A model generated the notes under the pieces. It saw only the letters and a program-made list of their open reading frames with translations, was not told the DNA's origin and did not search any database. From a candidate division KSB1 bacterium (GTDB lineage: Bacteria > Electryoneota > RPQS01): a stretch of 64,000 nt of DNA. The DNA is taken from NCBI GenBank assembly GCA_016214895.1, contig JACRMR010000020.1, positions 167,812 through 231,811 on the forward strand, given 5' to 3'. Made by a program: the position numbers and the translations under genes. Positions 15,476 to 22,689 of the stretch are shown in pieces. Numbering within the stretch: position 1 is the stretch's first letter; every line of letters starts with the position of its first letter.

Positions 15476-16735
15476 GTGAAAAGATTCACTTGTATTACCT
15501 TGTTTGTGGTTACTCTGATGTTGGATGCCTCGTTCGCAAACGCGCCGCAGTACGTCAATTATCAGGGGACCCTTGCAAGCCCCGACGGCACGCCGCTCGA
15601 TACGACGGTAGCTGTCACAGTCTCGATCTACAATTCCCCTTCCGGCGGTGGGCCGCTTTGGTCGTCGACCTTTGAAGCGGTGACGGTCACGGATGGACAG
15701 TTCACGGTCCTCTTGGGAAGTCAGGAGCCGCTGTTGGGCCTCTTTTTGGCGCCGACTCGGTGGCTCGGCGTGACCATCGGGAACAACACGGAGATGACCC
15801 CGCGGCAAGTGATGGTTTCGGTACCGTATGCCTACCGCGTCGGCTCGATTGATACAACGAGCGGCGGCACAGTGTTCGGGAACGTGACGGTTTCAGGCGG
15901 CAACCTGCAGGTCAGCGGCAAGCTGAACGTGGGAAGCGGCAACACAAACACAGGGAGTTTCGCCAATGTGTTGGGGCAGGACAATCTCTCGTCGGGTCTG
16001 AATGCGGTGGTGGGCGGTGGGCGCAATAGCAAGGCGCGAGGAAGCTATTCTGTGGTTGCGGGCGGCGGCGGGGCGGCGCCAGACGATTCCAACTCGGCCA
16101 GTGGTGATTATTCCGCCATTGGCGGCGGCGCGCGCAATTTTGCTTCCGGCGCGGGTTCCACCGTTCCCGGCGGTCTCAATAACACAGCGCAGGGGACCAA
16201 TTCCTTCGCGTCCGGGCGCAGCGCGTATGCTTTCCACGACGGGTGCTTCGTCTGGGGCGATAACAACTCAGCCGTGGTTCAGTCCTATGATCTCAATATG
16301 TTTATGGCCCGGGCTACCGGGGGTTTTCACCTCTTCACCAACACCGCGCTGAATGCCGGCGCTCTTCTCCTGCCGGGCGGTGGAGCGTGGAGCACGTTCT
16401 CGGACAGCACAAAGAAGCGTAATGCGCGTGTTGTGGACACCAAGTCTATTTTGGAGAAGGTAAGGTCCCTGCCGATCAAGCAGTGGAGCTACAACTCTCA
16501 GAATCCATCCTTTGAACATGTTGGCCCGATGGCGCAGGATTTCTACGCGGCCTTCGGGCTGGGCGAGTGTGACACGCTGATTTCCACGATTGATCCGGAT
16601 GGGATTGCGCTGGCGGCGATTCAGGAGCTGGCAAAGCGGTTGGAAGCAGTCGAAGCCGAGAACATGACCCTGCGTTCGCGGCTTCAAACTTTAGAGGCAA
16701 GTGACAAGCAGTCCTTGAACAAACCCACGGAGTAG
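15476..16735 (+). CDS. Secreted YadA-head-repeat protein with Peptidase S74 chaperone domain
   Basis: 419 residues. After a signal peptide (1-22) comes a beta domain (25-120) opening with NYQGTLASPDGTPLDTTV, then YadA-head-like repeats (about 150-245) with alternating GGGxNxAxGxxS units, then a Peptidase S74 intramolecular chaperone from about residue 300. The Ser/Lys dyad reads as Ser309 and Lys314 in FSDSTKKRN, followed by the family's HVGPMAQDF stretch and a C-terminal coiled coil (LAKRLEAVEAENMTLRSRL). In phage tailspikes such domains trimerise the passenger and then cut themselves off. GGAG upstream supports the GTG start. First gene of a three-gene operon. Confidence 0.88.
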   Translation: MKRFTCITLFVVTLMLDASFANAPQYVNYQGTLASPDGTPLDTTVAVTVSIYNSPSGGGPLWSSTFEAVTVTDGQFTVLLGSQEPLLGLFLAPTRWLGVTIGNNTEMTPRQVMVSVPYAYRVGSIDTTSGGTVFGNVTVSGGNLQVSGKLNVGSGNTNTGSFANVLGQDNLSSGLNAVVGGGRNSKARGSYSVVAGGGGAAPDDSNSASGDYSAIGGGARNFASGAGSTVPGGLNNTAQGTNSFASGRSAYAFHDGCFVWGDNNSAVVQSYDLNMFMARATGGFHLFTNTALNAGALLLPGGGAWSTFSDSTKKRNARVVDTKSILEKVRSLPIKQWSYNSQNPSFEHVGPMAQDFYAAFGLGECDTLISTIDPDGIALAAIQELAKRLEAVEAENMTLRSRLQTLEASDKQSLNKPTE

Positions 16736-16741
16736 ATGGCC

Positions 16742-18796
16742 ATGAAGCGGTTCGTACTCTCGGTTCTATTGCTGGCGACTCAAGCTTCTGCCATTCCGCT
16801 GCTGGTCAATTACCAGGGTCAGCTCACCAGCTCCGGCGGAACGCCGTTGGACACAACCGTGAGCATAGCCGTTCGCATGTACACGGGTGCGGTCGGCGGT
16901 GCGCAATTGTGGGCGGAGACACACTCCGCTGTGCCGGTCGCCGACGGTCAGTTCCAGGTTAGCCTGGGCGAACTCTCCAGCTTGACCGATGTCATTTTCA
17001 ATCAGCCGCAAGTATGGCTCGGAGTGACCATCGGGAGCGACAGTGAACTGAGCCCGCGGACGCAACTGACATCTGTTGCCTATTCCTACTACACGGGAAC
17101 GGTACACGCGGCAACCGGGGGAACGGTGACCGGTGATGTCACGATTCTCGGCAAAGGCAACATCGGGACCGGCAATGCCAATACCGGCAGCGGTGCGTTT
17201 GTCGCGGGCAGCAATAATTTCGCCACGGGCCAGAATTCGACGGTCGGCGGCGGAACGGGAAACATCGCGGAGAATTTGGCGGCCGTCGTAAGCGGCGGCG
17301 CTTCCAACTTCGCTCGCGGCGCATATTCCACGGTTGCAGGCGGCGGCGGAACGACGCTCGCGGATTCCAATCTGGCCTCCGGTGACTATTCGGTCGTCAG
17401 CGGCGGGGCGGGGAATGCCGCCGATGGTTTTGTTGCCACGATCGCCGGCGGGTCGCGAAACATTGCTTCGGGATCGCGCGCCGCCATCGGCGGCGGCCGC
17501 GTGAATCGCGCCCGCGGAGATTTCTCCGTCGTGGCGGGCGGCGGCGGAACGGCTCTCGCCGATTCCAATTCCGCGAATTTCCCCTACGGCACGATTGGCG
17601 GCGGACAGGGCAATCACATTCTCGCGGACTATGGCACGATCTCCGGCGGTCTGGGAAATGAAGTCGGCTGGAGTTCGGCGGTCGTTGGCGGAGAGCACAA
17701 CGCGGCACAGGGAAATGCCGCCTTTATCGGCGGCGGTGTGAATAATTATGCGCGCGGCCCGTACTCGGTCATTTGCGGGGGAGGAAATGCCGTCGCCTCG
17801 GATTCCAATGCCATCGGCACCAACGGCTGGTACAGCTTTATCGGCGGGGGCCATCACAATACTGTCAGTAACCCCGAGGCGGTGGTCGTGGGGGGTGTCT
17901 TAAATCACGCCGAGGGCCACGCGTTTGTCGGGGGCGGGTATGGCAACGATGCGGCGGGCAATTACTCGGCGATCGGAGCCGGAGCTTCCAATACTGCATC
18001 CGGCGCCTACTCAACCATCGGCGCGGGCCGCGATAATGCAACCGACGATACAGCTTCGACGGTCGCCGGAGGACGATACTGTCGCGCGCGCGGCCGCTAT
18101 TCATCAGTGCTTGGTGGCGGAGGTTATAATGCCGCTGACTCCAACTCCGCAACGGGCGATTGGTCCACGGTGCTCGGTGGGCGCGCGTCGCGGGCCACCG
18201 CGGACTATGCCATTGCTCTGGGCCGCAAGGCCGTCGCCATGCATACCGGCAGCATTGTCATCACCGACGGGAATGACATCGCGTTTAACTCAACCGCCGA
18301 CAATCAGTGTATCATTCGGGCCAGCGGCGGAACCACGATCTACTCGGCCGCGTTGCCATTTTCCGGAGTATCCCTTGCCGCCGGAGGAAATGCATGGGTT
18401 GGCGTCTCCGACAGCACCAGAAAACGCGACATCCGTCTGACAGACACCAGATCCGTGCTCGCGAAGGTTTCATCACTTCCCGTTAAGGACTGGGAGTACA
18501 AATCCGAAGCTATAGGCGTCGAGCACATGGGTCCGATGGCGCAGGATTTTTGGAATGCGTTTCATCTGGGCAGTGATTCGCTCGGGATTGCCACGAATGA
18601 CGCGGATGGGGTGTTGTTCGCGGCAGTGCGGGAGTTGGCACAAAGGAATGCTGAATTAAGCACGGCTGTGAGGCACCACGAGGCCAGGCTGCTGGAGCTC
18701 GAGGCAAGGTTGGACAAAATCGCGTCCGCGACGGCGGGTGGCTTGACAGACATAGCTACAGGCGTTACATTGGTGAACGGAAAGCGAGGACAGTAG
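16742..18796 (+). CDS. Large secreted YadA-head-repeat protein with Peptidase S74 chaperone domain
   Basis: 684-residue paralogue of the preceding gene. Signal peptide 1-18; the same N-terminal beta domain (NYQGQLTSSGGTPLDTTV); then a long run of YadA-head repeats from about residue 140 to 490 with units such as GAYSTVAGGGG, NIASGSRAAIGGG and NYARGPYSVICGGG. The S74 domain follows with Ser556 and Lys561 in VSDSTRKRD and HMGPMAQDFW, then a coiled coil. The expected product is a trimeric beta-prism fibre after self-cleavage. GGAG at 16729-16732 favours the ATG at 16742 over that at 16736, which directly abuts the upstream stop. Confidence 0.88.
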   Translation: MKRFVLSVLLLATQASAIPLLVNYQGQLTSSGGTPLDTTVSIAVRMYTGAVGGAQLWAETHSAVPVADGQFQVSLGELSSLTDVIFNQPQVWLGVTIGSDSELSPRTQLTSVAYSYYTGTVHAATGGTVTGDVTILGKGNIGTGNANTGSGAFVAGSNNFATGQNSTVGGGTGNIAENLAAVVSGGASNFARGAYSTVAGGGGTTLADSNLASGDYSVVSGGAGNAADGFVATIAGGSRNIASGSRAAIGGGRVNRARGDFSVVAGGGGTALADSNSANFPYGTIGGGQGNHILADYGTISGGLGNEVGWSSAVVGGEHNAAQGNAAFIGGGVNNYARGPYSVICGGGNAVASDSNAIGTNGWYSFIGGGHHNTVSNPEAVVVGGVLNHAEGHAFVGGGYGNDAAGNYSAIGAGASNTASGAYSTIGAGRDNATDDTASTVAGGRYCRARGRYSSVLGGGGYNAADSNSATGDWSTVLGGRASRATADYAIALGRKAVAMHTGSIVITDGNDIAFNSTADNQCIIRASGGTTIYSAALPFSGVSLAAGGNAWVGVSDSTRKRDIRLTDTRSVLAKVSSLPVKDWEYKSEAIGVEHMGPMAQDFWNAFHLGSDSLGIATNDADGVLFAAVRELAQRNAELSTAVRHHEARLLELEARLDKIASATAGGLTDIATGVTLVNGKRGQ

Positions 18797-19658: not shown

Positions 19659-19732
19659 GCGCCCGTAGCTCAACTGGATAGAGCGTCTGGCTACGGACCA
19701 GAAGGTTTGGGGTTCGAATCCCTACGGGCGTA
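19659..19732 (+). tRNA. tRNA-Arg (anticodon ACG)
   Basis: 74-base cloverleaf without encoded CCA. Acceptor GCGCCCG pairs with CGGGCGT (first pair G-U), D arm GCTCAACTGGATAGAGC, anticodon stem TCTGG/CCAGA with loop CTACGGA (anticodon ACG), T arm TGGGG/CCCTA around TTCGAAT. ACG is normally converted to ICG by TadA, whose gene lies 2.4 kb downstream. Confidence 0.95.
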
Positions 19733-19791
19733 CGAAGACAGATAGTCCCACTCCGCGGTAGTCCCCCAGCGAGGCGGGAGAGCAAGAGTTC

Positions 19792-19814
19792 AACCCCGCA
19801 CGTGCGGGGTTTTG
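19792..19814 (+). terminator. Terminator after tRNA-Arg
   Basis: AACCCCGCAC (19792-19801) and GTGCGGGGTT (19802-19811) form a perfect stem followed by TTG. It separates the tRNA transcript from the downstream two-gene unit. Confidence 0.75.
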
Positions 19815-19880
19815 CATGGATCGAAACCGAACAAACTCCCACCAATTTCCCATTGGCTCGGATACGAGGTTGCTAATACA

Positions 19881-21140
19881 GTGAAGAAGCGGATTTGGGA
19901 CGAGCAGTATTGGGTAAACGGTGTTCTCGCCAAAACCCAGATTCAGGCGCTTCAGGAAGCAGGTGAAATCAACACCGAGAGCGGGAGCTTATCGATTGGT
20001 GAGTCTTCGTTTGACCTGACCATCACCAATATGGCGTGGAAACTCAAACCGGGTCGCGGAACCATCAAGCCTTTCGGAGGAGTGTACCGGAATGTTCTGA
20101 ATGACGTTTCCTTGTTCGAGAAGATGATCCCCGAAGAGGATAATTCATTTGCCTTGGAGGATGGGCATACTTACGTATTTGGGGTCAACGAGCGCCTTCT
20201 TGTCGGTGGCGGTCCATTCAACGGTCATGCAACAGCCAAGAGTTCCGTCGGAAGGGTGGACGTGATTGTTCGCTTGATCGTTGATGGAGAGGACGAGTAC
20301 GACATCTATCACGCGGAGAATAGTCGACTCGGGCACAACGAAATGTTCATCGAAGTATCGCCAATTACGTTCTCAGTCCAGGTTCAGGTAGGCACTCCTT
20401 TGACCCAACTTCGGTTGTTTTATGGCCCCATCGAGGACGCAGAAATCGACAGCGCGTTCGTCAGATCACTTTGTATTGTCAGGGGTTGTGGGTCGGCATC
20501 CGACGGGATCTTACGCGTTGATCTCACTTCCGAGCATATTGGCGGTCTACCGGTTTGCGCATTCCAAGCCAACACCGACGAGGACCAACATCTTGATCCC
20601 ATCAAGCTGTTCAAGTCCGCGAATTTACCCGATCCGTGCAACTACTGGCGTTTCTGGACGGCGGACCAAGCGCAACGCTTGACGGTCGTCAAGAACAGGT
20701 TCTATATATTGCGCTCAAAGGAGCTGCTTGCGGTACCTCCGGGAGTCGCTGTTTATTGCAGGGCGATGGATGAAGCATTGGGGGAAATGCGGATCCACTA
20801 TGCCGGGTTTGTCCACCCGTACTTCGGATATGATCGTGAAGATCAGACAATCGGAACCCCGTTGATTTTCGAGCTTCGGGGACATGATCTCAATGTTACA
20901 CTCCGCGACGGGGAAAAGCTAGCCAAGCTCGTGTTCTACCGTATGTCCACGGAATACGATCCGACCAAGGACGAGGACAGGCAAACCAGACCGAAGTCGG
21001 ATGACTACACTAATCAGAGACTGAAGCTATCCAACTATTTCGCCAAGTTCCCAGATAGACTCGAACTATACGACCGTAACAGAGTTCGTGAGGCCCCTGC
21101 TCGTTCCACTGAATCGCGCCTAGAGAAGACAGATGCCTGA
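19881..21140 (+). CDS. DCD-type 2'-deoxycytidine 5'-triphosphate deaminase homologue (two-domain form)
   Basis: About 419 residues with two dUTPase/Dcd-like halves. The first carries KSSVGRVDV (Ser121/122) like the ARSSxGR motif of dCTP deaminases, and FIEVSPITFSVQV with Glu158 at the place of the catalytic Glu. The second half shows IHYAGFVHPYFGYD, LIFELRGHDLNVTLRDGEKL and LSNYFAKF, matching the long DCD form known from alphaproteobacteria. The expected reaction is dCTP to dUTP, changing pyrimidine pools. The GTG at 19881 is chosen for its GAGG and because the family begins near there; the frame extends to 19812. By eye its base composition is more AT-rich than its neighbours. It overlaps the next gene by 8 bases. 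Confidence 0.8.
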   Translation: MKKRIWDEQYWVNGVLAKTQIQALQEAGEINTESGSLSIGESSFDLTITNMAWKLKPGRGTIKPFGGVYRNVLNDVSLFEKMIPEEDNSFALEDGHTYVFGVNERLLVGGGPFNGHATAKSSVGRVDVIVRLIVDGEDEYDIYHAENSRLGHNEMFIEVSPITFSVQVQVGTPLTQLRLFYGPIEDAEIDSAFVRSLCIVRGCGSASDGILRVDLTSEHIGGLPVCAFQANTDEDQHLDPIKLFKSANLPDPCNYWRFWTADQAQRLTVVKNRFYILRSKELLAVPPGVAVYCRAMDEALGEMRIHYAGFVHPYFGYDREDQTIGTPLIFELRGHDLNVTLRDGEKLAKLVFYRMSTEYDPTKDEDRQTRPKSDDYTNQRLKLSNYFAKFPDRLELYDRNRVREAPARSTESRLEKTDA

Positions 21141-22164
21141 CCTCCTTCACACTACAAGCAAACTGGGGATTGCCTGCGTTAACGGTCGGGACGTATTAGG
21201 CGAGAGCGACAAGTATATCCACCTGAAGCGCTTGATTGCCGATCACGATGACATGTATCCCGGTATCGATCGCTGGTTTGATCGCAAGGTCAAGCCGGGG
21301 CTACAAACCGGTGAGCGGATTGCCTTCATCGGGTATGACGCGGCAGTCCCAATCGTGTCATCCGTGGTGAAGATTGATGGCGATTCTAAGTTCTGCCACC
21401 TTCATATCGATGAGCGTTACCGTGAAATGCAATTGGGCGAAGTGTTCTTCTCGATGATGTCCCTCGCAGTGAGTAGAAGCGCAACCCGAGTCCACTTTAC
21501 ACTGCCGGAGGGACTGTGGTCAGAACAGAAGGAGTTCTTCAAGAGCTTCGGCTTCGCGACCGCCCGAAATGCGCATGTCAACTATCGTCCGGGTCAGGAC
21601 GAACTCCTTTGTACCTCAAACTTCCAAGCCGTTTGGCAATCTGTCATCGCCAAGATCCCGAAGTTGATTGAGCGCTTTTCCACTGATGAGTCAACGTCAA
21701 ATGGGCTGTTGATGAGCATCAAATCCGACCATGCAAACAAGATTCTGTACGGGAACAAGCGTGTTGAGATTAGGAAGAAGTTCAGCCGCGAGTGGATCGG
21801 GCGCACCATTGTAATCTACTCGAGCGACAAACAGCAGAAACTAGCAGGGCAAGTGAGGATTGCCAATGTGGTAAGCGGCACGCCCGAGTCAGTTTGGGAG
21901 CGATTCAATACGGAGATCGGTTGTTCGGCTGCGGAGTACTTCTCTTACGCGGGTAATCATCATCAGGTATTCGCCTTGTTACTCGATTCGGTGGTACCAT
22001 ACGAGCGCAGTTTGACACTTACAGAGGCCAGAAAGTACAGCTCGCAAAGAATTACACCGCCACAATCATATTGTCGACTGACCGAGAACAAAGGATGGGC
22101 TGAAATCGTCACCCTGAACGAGATACTTGCAGGTCAATTTACAGCGAAGATAGATGTCGGTTAA
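21133..22164 (+). CDS. GNAT-like acetyltransferase fused to an ASCH/PUA-like domain
   Basis: 343 residues. Residues 20-160 resemble a GNAT fold: a strand HLHIDERYRE, the acetyl-CoA loop position QLGEVFFSMMSLAV, and EFFKSFGFATAR near the end. Residues 185-310 match an ASCH domain: LLMSIKSDHANKILYGNKRVEIRKKF in short pieces, IVIYSSDKQQ, GQVRIANVVSG and PESVWERF. ASCH domains are PUA-like and bind RNA or modified nucleotides. The start overlaps the stop of the dCTP deaminase-like gene, so the two are translationally coupled and probably act together. Function is inferred only from domains. Confidence 0.7.
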   Translation: MPDLLHTTSKLGIACVNGRDVLGESDKYIHLKRLIADHDDMYPGIDRWFDRKVKPGLQTGERIAFIGYDAAVPIVSSVVKIDGDSKFCHLHIDERYREMQLGEVFFSMMSLAVSRSATRVHFTLPEGLWSEQKEFFKSFGFATARNAHVNYRPGQDELLCTSNFQAVWQSVIAKIPKLIERFSTDESTSNGLLMSIKSDHANKILYGNKRVEIRKKFSREWIGRTIVIYSSDKQQKLAGQVRIANVVSGTPESVWERFNTEIGCSAAEYFSYAGNHHQVFALLLDSVVPYERSLTLTEARKYSSQRITPPQSYCRLTENKGWAEIVTLNEILAGQFTAKIDVG

Positions 22165-22173
22165 CGCTGATAG

Positions 22174-22689
22174 TTGATTTTGAATCTCTTTGAAACATTC
22201 GGCCACCCCGATCACTCGCGCTGGATGGGTGAGGCGTTGCGCGAGGCGGCGTTGGCCGAAGCCAAGGACGAGGTGCCGATTGGCTGCGTGATTGTTCACA
22301 ACGGGCTGGTGATCGGTCGCGGGCACAATCAGCTTGAGAGTCTGCAGGACCCGACGGCGCACGCCGAGATGATCGCGATCACCTCGGCGGCAGCAACCCT
22401 TGGTTCACGGCGATTGCTGGATTGCATTCTATACGTAACGCTGGAGCCGTGCGCGATGTGCGCCGGAGCGATTGTGCTGGCGCGGATTCCACTGGTTGTA
22501 TATGGAGCGGCTGATCCGAAGGCTGGCGCCGTGGATACGCATTACACGCTGTTGCAGGATTCGCGTTTGAATCACACCTGTTCAGTGGTGCGGGGCGTGC
22601 GAGGGGAGGAATGCGGGGCGGTGCTATCGACGTACTTCCGGAGTTTGCGTGCGCGGAAGAAGAGTGGCGGACCGGAACAGGACACCTAA
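22174..22689 (+). CDS. tadA: tRNA-specific adenosine deaminase
   Basis: 171 residues; converts A34 to inosine in tRNA-Arg(ACG). The zinc site is complete: HAE in PTAHAEMIAI and PCAMC in LEPCAMCAGAIVLARI. The N-terminus HSRWMGEALREAALAEAKDE aligns with E. coli TadA, so a start upstream of the ATG at 22225 is needed; TTG at 22174 or 22180 are the candidates. The C-terminal extension RSLRARKK is normal for the family. It follows the GNAT-ASCH gene by 9 bases. Confidence 0.95.
   Translation: MILNLFETFGHPDHSRWMGEALREAALAEAKDEVPIGCVIVHNGLVIGRGHNQLESLQDPTAHAEMIAITSAAATLGSRRLLDCILYVTLEPCAMCAGAIVLARIPLVVYGAADPKAGAVDTHYTLLQDSRLNHTCSVVRGVRGEECGAVLSTYFRSLRARKKSGGPEQDT

Follow-up and report, generated by a model that had tools for sequence, protein, structure and literature searches.

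The gap between a tRNA-Arg gene and tadA in the window analysed here (the whole stretch of 64,000 nucleotides) holds two coupled genes, and raises the question whether a deaminase-like protein and its acetyltransferase-like partner act in phage defence, as a toxin–antitoxin pair or in ordinary nucleotide metabolism. All features of this locus lie on the forward strand. The tRNA-Arg (ACG) gene at 19659–19733, identified with ARAGORN, is the insertion site of the unit. Between it and the first gene a GC-rich hairpin followed by a T-run (19793–19815) is probably a transcription terminator; it was missed by a pattern scan, and an 8-bp GC stem is seen within the folded stretch 19734–19881. Gene A (19881–21140) encodes a long two-domain DCD protein (dCTP deaminase/dUTPase fold) of ∼419 amino acids counted from a GTG. 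Its reading frame is open from a TTG at 19812; because a GAGG precedes the GTG and this codon lines up with the Met region of the genome G002 homologue, GTG 19881 is the likely start and the unit thus spans 19881–22164. Gene B (21133–22164, 343 amino acids) encodes a GNAT acetyltransferase fold (residues ∼7–165) fused to an ASCH domain (∼190–320). Both frames described in the initial annotation were found, sharing the eight bases 21133–21140, and the unit lies where that annotation had placed it, with the tRNA on its 5′ side and tadA on its 3′ side. The tadA gene, encoding the tRNA adenosine deaminase (22180–22689; PF14437/PF00383), is the ancestral right-hand neighbour. Elsewhere in the window (15476–18796) we noted by eye two adjoining secreted proteins; they carry numerous SGxxSxVxGGxxN repeats resembling the YadA head, and their C-terminal end is peptidase_S74-like.

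The product of gene A matches Pfam DCD_N (PF06559, 2.9e-23) and DCD_C (PF22569, 5e-26) across its whole length. Its AlphaFold model (pLDDT 75.7, pTM 0.80) has its best match in the long DCD structure 2r9q (TM by target 0.87–0.90, E 1.7e-28), followed by short DCDs and dUTPases. The KSSxGR and Glu motifs are intact; Pfam and fold comparison thus agree with the two DCD halves initially read from the letters. S144, R148 and E181 (P0001 numbering) are the equivalents of E. coli Dcd Ser111, Arg115 and Glu138 and are invariant across the system DCDs and the housekeeping long DCDs, as are further residues of the C-terminal half (H329, A331, G332, F333, E354, R356 and H358). Since the active-site residues are invariant, gene A likely encodes a competent enzyme. 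Although fold and active-site residues are common to gene A and the long dCTP deaminases (PRK07559/NF005734, PDB 2r9q) over the full length, gene A is only 26–30% identical to the long bacterial enzymes and scores 165.1 bits, below the curated NF005734 equivalog cut-off of 283. System DCDs are paired with a GNAT-ASCH protein; in alphaproteobacteria the long DCDs observed stand alone. A branch with 100/100 support in the tree separates the housekeeping long DCDs from the system DCDs, which are joined by two same-clade proteins lacking a GNAT-ASCH partner (L023:8352–10300 and L026:8679–10591). Each of these genes shares 4 bases with the 3′ end of a ParA/Soj gene, which makes a ParA-DCD operon in two genera.

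The acetyltransferase-like fold and the ASCH domain proposed for gene B were also recovered: the ASCH part is weak in Pfam, where it stays below threshold (1e-3), but strong in PADLOC (PDC-M11B, 5.7e-26) and PHROG (3136, 5.5e-28) and in fold comparison. In the model (pLDDT 85.2) a GNAT domain is followed by an ASCH domain, and a second PUA-like domain is absent. The N-terminal half has its best solved matches in many GNAT acetyltransferases, the C-terminal half in ZmASCH (1.6e-11). Only the second Gly of the GNAT acetyl-CoA motif is invariant; the first is replaced in several system GNATs. Gene B shares the ASCH fold with the ZmASCH ssRNase (5guq), and the equivalents of its Tyr47 and Ser128 (Y229 and S312) are invariant, but Lys53 is not conserved and is a Gln in the window protein. 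The same fold is found in YqfB, an ASCH amidohydrolase of N4-acetylcytidine (PMC6972931), which brings up the handling of N4-acylated cytidine, with the GNAT making the modification, the ASCH domain removing it in a YqfB-like manner and the DCD deaminating. Each of the three folds includes members acting on the N4 of cytosine, yet of the Thr-Lys-Glu triad of YqfB the nucleophile Thr24 is replaced by Glu in 10/10 aligned system proteins, with only Lys21 and Arg26 kept; YqfB chemistry, as known, is thereby excluded for gene B, and we consider the whole scheme highly improbable. In one of the GNAT-ASCH proteins (L041:3700–4836) an N-terminal segment is tandemly duplicated (SEVKLKDLQKSI.ECEDL repeated).

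In order to place the pair among known systems we compared both proteins with defence families. Judged by profile matches, the nearest kin of gene B is the PADLOC candidate defence family PDC-M11 (GNAT-EVE + ASCH), which upholds the initial idea of a defence connection on the side of the second gene. The ASCH part of the GNAT-ASCH proteins matches PDC-M11B in 9/9 members (best 2.8e-27) and the GNAT part matches PDC-M11A in 5/9 (best 3.7e-6), while a GNAT-EVE protein as such is not present. In Escherichia phage PhiR47_2 the proteins annotated as toxin (GevT) and antitoxin (GevA) correspond to PDC-M11A (2.1e-133) and PDC-M11B (6.8e-52), respectively. The kinship of the GNAT part is distant (a three-sequence hmmsearch gave 0.016 for GevT and 0.0009 for a Rahnella GNAT-EVE protein), so that a derivation from PDC-M11 is argued mainly from the ASCH part. 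PDC-M11/GevAT and the unit have in common the ASCH family, distantly the GNAT, the order of two overlapping genes and the position of ASCH in the second; the unit differs in having neither EVE nor PIN, in the fusion of ASCH to GNAT and in a separate DCD as obligatory partner. It looks like PDC-M11 re-wired, with the EVE domain gone, ASCH joined to GNAT and an active-site-intact deaminase as partner. Operons of the (PIN)-GNAT-EVE + ASCH type are predicted toxin–antitoxin or defence systems, and as of 2020 this was still a prediction (PMC7641849). In a literature search with subscription journals and preprints largely outside its reach, a DCD together with ASCH was not described and the names PDC-M11 and GevAT were absent.

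The kinship proposed for the first gene fared differently. AvcD and DcdV, the defence deaminases to which it had been likened, belong to the zinc CDA superfamily. Gene A has the dUTPase/DCD fold, no PF00383 match and no match in PADLOC, deaminase models included; because these zinc deaminases are of another fold, the comparison is wrong by descent, membership is rejected, and with homology not found the predicted chemistry alone is shared. That chemistry, dCTP to dUTP, is anti-phage in AvcD (PMC10511110), and the initial annotation could be read as implying a convergent dCTP depletion of the AvcD/DcdV type under the control of an RNA antitoxin. In addition to the different fold and family of gene A, the leader 19734–19881 as a whole folds no better than shuffled sequences (z −0.9) and nothing points to an RNA antitoxin, which makes this version very unlikely.

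We then asked how firmly the two genes are associated. A profile search of genome contigs with the GNAT-ASCH alignment retrieved 11 loci, from Calditrichaeota, Caldithrix, Hatepunaea, Ignavibacteriae, Stahlbacteria, WOR-3, LCP-89 and Tariuqbacter, among others, that is, from Calditrichota-like phyla, Ignavibacteriae and WOR-3/Stahlbacteria; the search rested on a single conserved peptide pattern and is not exhaustive. In all 11 a DCD gene lies directly upstream on the same strand (in L033 and L036 it runs off the contig end), so with the window the two are paired at 12/12 loci. Gene A lies directly upstream of gene B in each of the eight nearest gene B carriers among the first 60 related genomes. 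The divergences of the two proteins correlate pairwise (Mantel r = 0.90, 0/5000 permutations), for which a shared species history alone could suffice. The full-length fusion occurs in 9/386 genomes, all of the window's own phylum (9/39 there), a patchy distribution unlike that of a housekeeping pair; the other 347 genomes yielded no full-length fusion, with ASCH-only matches of ∼1e-22 as against 1e-144 or better. L030, a candidate third solo DCD, is the 5′ half of the gene in genome G032, split over two contigs with a 127-bp exact overlap. In the phage records searched for related genes DCD was not found, and ASCH occurred alone.

The site is empty in seven same-family genomes (G001, G003, G004, G006, G007, G008 and G010), where tRNA-Arg (ACG) is followed by a short spacer and then tadA; at L071 and L075 the tadA frame lies under a longer open reading frame and was read from the sequence. 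The unit fills this gap in the window. In G002 the copy also follows the same tRNA-Arg; the contig stops just past gene B and another G002 contig begins with tadA, so this copy probably occupies the same site. Occupancy is thus 2/9 in this family, and the tadA tree is compatible with gain and loss alike. In the relatives tadA is 70–77% identical and adjacent to the tRNA. Between G000 and G002 the system proteins are 45–47% identical compared with 76% for tadA, so the unit diverges fast or was replaced. No other 2.3-kb stretch of the window is so rich in AT (GC content of the unit 51.5% versus 59.7 ± 1.9% for stretches of equal size, 0/572 lower), and in 8/8 loci measured the unit is AT-richer than its flanks by 7–13 points. 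The AT-richness that had been judged by eye is therefore borne out by measurement and, with the empty and occupied sites and the patchy distribution, the proposal of a transferred cassette stands. In other lineages the unit is located elsewhere. Its flanking genes are common within two genome pairs (L025/L028 and L021/L030), which points to stable inheritance there and to a unit that is not purely mobile; an integrase and flanking or att repeats were looked for at the unit and none were found. Obligatory pairing, insertion into the tRNA-Arg/tadA gap and intact DCD active-site residues are shown by comparison. We conclude that the pair is genuine, conserved and laterally distributed.

A long DCD in this genome would be a supplement to existing enzymes. 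The window's genome has a dUTPase and a dCMP deaminase-like PF00383 protein with HAE and PCxxC motifs, both of which are also found in same-family relatives without the unit; since these are already present, the long DCD is an extra, accessory enzyme. A PF22769 match elsewhere in the genome, considered as a second Dcd, is the dUTPase. The pair could also belong to accessory nucleotide metabolism and have no role in conflict: the additional dCTP deaminase would serve dTTP supply or salvage, and its GNAT-ASCH partner regulation or repair. Active-site residues shared with housekeeping long DCDs, the position of most loci among ordinary genes and the two clade members standing solo behind a ParA gene are in keeping with such a role, but the dCMP deaminase and dUTPase already in the genome and a patchy, site-inserted, AT-rich and fast-diverging unit argue against it, and we regard it as unlikely.

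In the gene neighbourhoods surveyed the pairing is conserved throughout; clear defence neighbours occur at 2/12 loci only, the others lying among ordinary genes. At the G032 copy (L030) Septu PtuAB is encoded ∼5 kb upstream; the L035 copy is followed by a type II methyltransferase operon. The latter (L035:8030–10281) consists of a DNA methyltransferase (PDLC03351, 3.7e-138) and an overlapping 385-aa gene of no known family with a distant homologue in Halobaculum, possibly the type II restriction partner. A PADLOC ‘mad3’ match next to L028 was left out of the defence count, the protein being an ABC-transporter-like ATPase. No defence island was found around the window copy, and the neighbours at two loci are weak support for a defence role.

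Taking all conflict readings together, a role in defence or as a toxin–antitoxin system is predicted as the more probable outcome, and the unit looks like a known candidate family, anti-phage or toxin–antitoxin, in a new arrangement. Our leading reading, to which we give a probability of roughly 0.37, is a horizontally carried, fast-diverging conflict module in which a DCD effector is under GNAT-ASCH control. The second gene would derive from the PDC-M11/GevAT (GNAT-EVE + ASCH) family. The DCD would act on deoxycytidine nucleotides, converting dCTP or phage-modified dCTP to the dU form and so starving or sanitising the nucleotide pool; the GNAT-ASCH protein would be its controller: its ASCH cleft would bind the signal, either RNA or a modified base, and its GNAT would acetylate a partner (deaminase, nucleotide or tRNA) to switch the state. 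The assignment of the effector and controller roles to the two genes is a guess. In favour of the module we count the constant pairing, the congruent divergence, the patchiness, the empty and occupied sites, the AT-richness, the PDC-M11/GevAT kinship, the intact active site, the host dCMP deaminase and dUTPase and the defence neighbours at two loci; against it, the lack of an integrase or att sites, the fixed place in some lineages, the window copy outside a defence island, the clear defence neighbours at no more than 2/12 loci, the mostly unconserved CoA motif and the partnerless L023 and L026. Put more boldly, the unit may be a hitherto undescribed immune module. Its dCTP deaminase, of the dUTPase fold, would stand in for the modified-base reader of a GNAT-EVE/ASCH system, so that an acetyltransferase-ASCH switch would be linked to the sensing or destruction of deoxycytidine nucleotides, perhaps phage-modified ones; this proposal is tentative, at somewhat less than an even chance.

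The roles could also be reversed. DCD-family enzymes are regulated by dTTP (cf. the titles of 2j4q and 2qxx), a general property that would suit a DCD in the role of the PDC-M11 EVE reader, where it would sense either the dCTP/dTTP pool or a modified form of a cytosine nucleotide; the GNAT would then be a toxin that acetylates charged tRNA or other RNA, with the fused ASCH domain as its restraint. The kin system annotates its GNAT-EVE protein as toxin and its ASCH protein as antitoxin, GNAT toxins acting on aminoacyl-tRNA and EVE domains reading modified cytosine are known (PMC7641849), and the DCD takes the position that an EVE would have. However, its catalytic residues are fully kept, beyond the need of a mere sensor, and several of the GNATs have lost the first Gly of the CoA motif; we rank this doubtful alternative next after the DCD-effector reading.

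Recruitment of a second, unrelated deaminase fold to a conflict system would be a case of convergent evolution of nucleotide-pool immunity; to our knowledge, the known anti-phage deoxycytidine deaminases are zinc enzymes. The uncharacterised GNAT-EVE/ASCH family would also be tied to an assayable small-molecule substrate, which would make its function testable.

A stand-alone GNAT of exactly the gene B subfamily (hmm 2.7e-58) is encoded on a single phage-like contig (L042:5393–6082, IMGVR_UViG_3300018005_000481) among the phage records. It is accompanied by neither ASCH nor DCD and is possibly a decoy or antagonist of the system.
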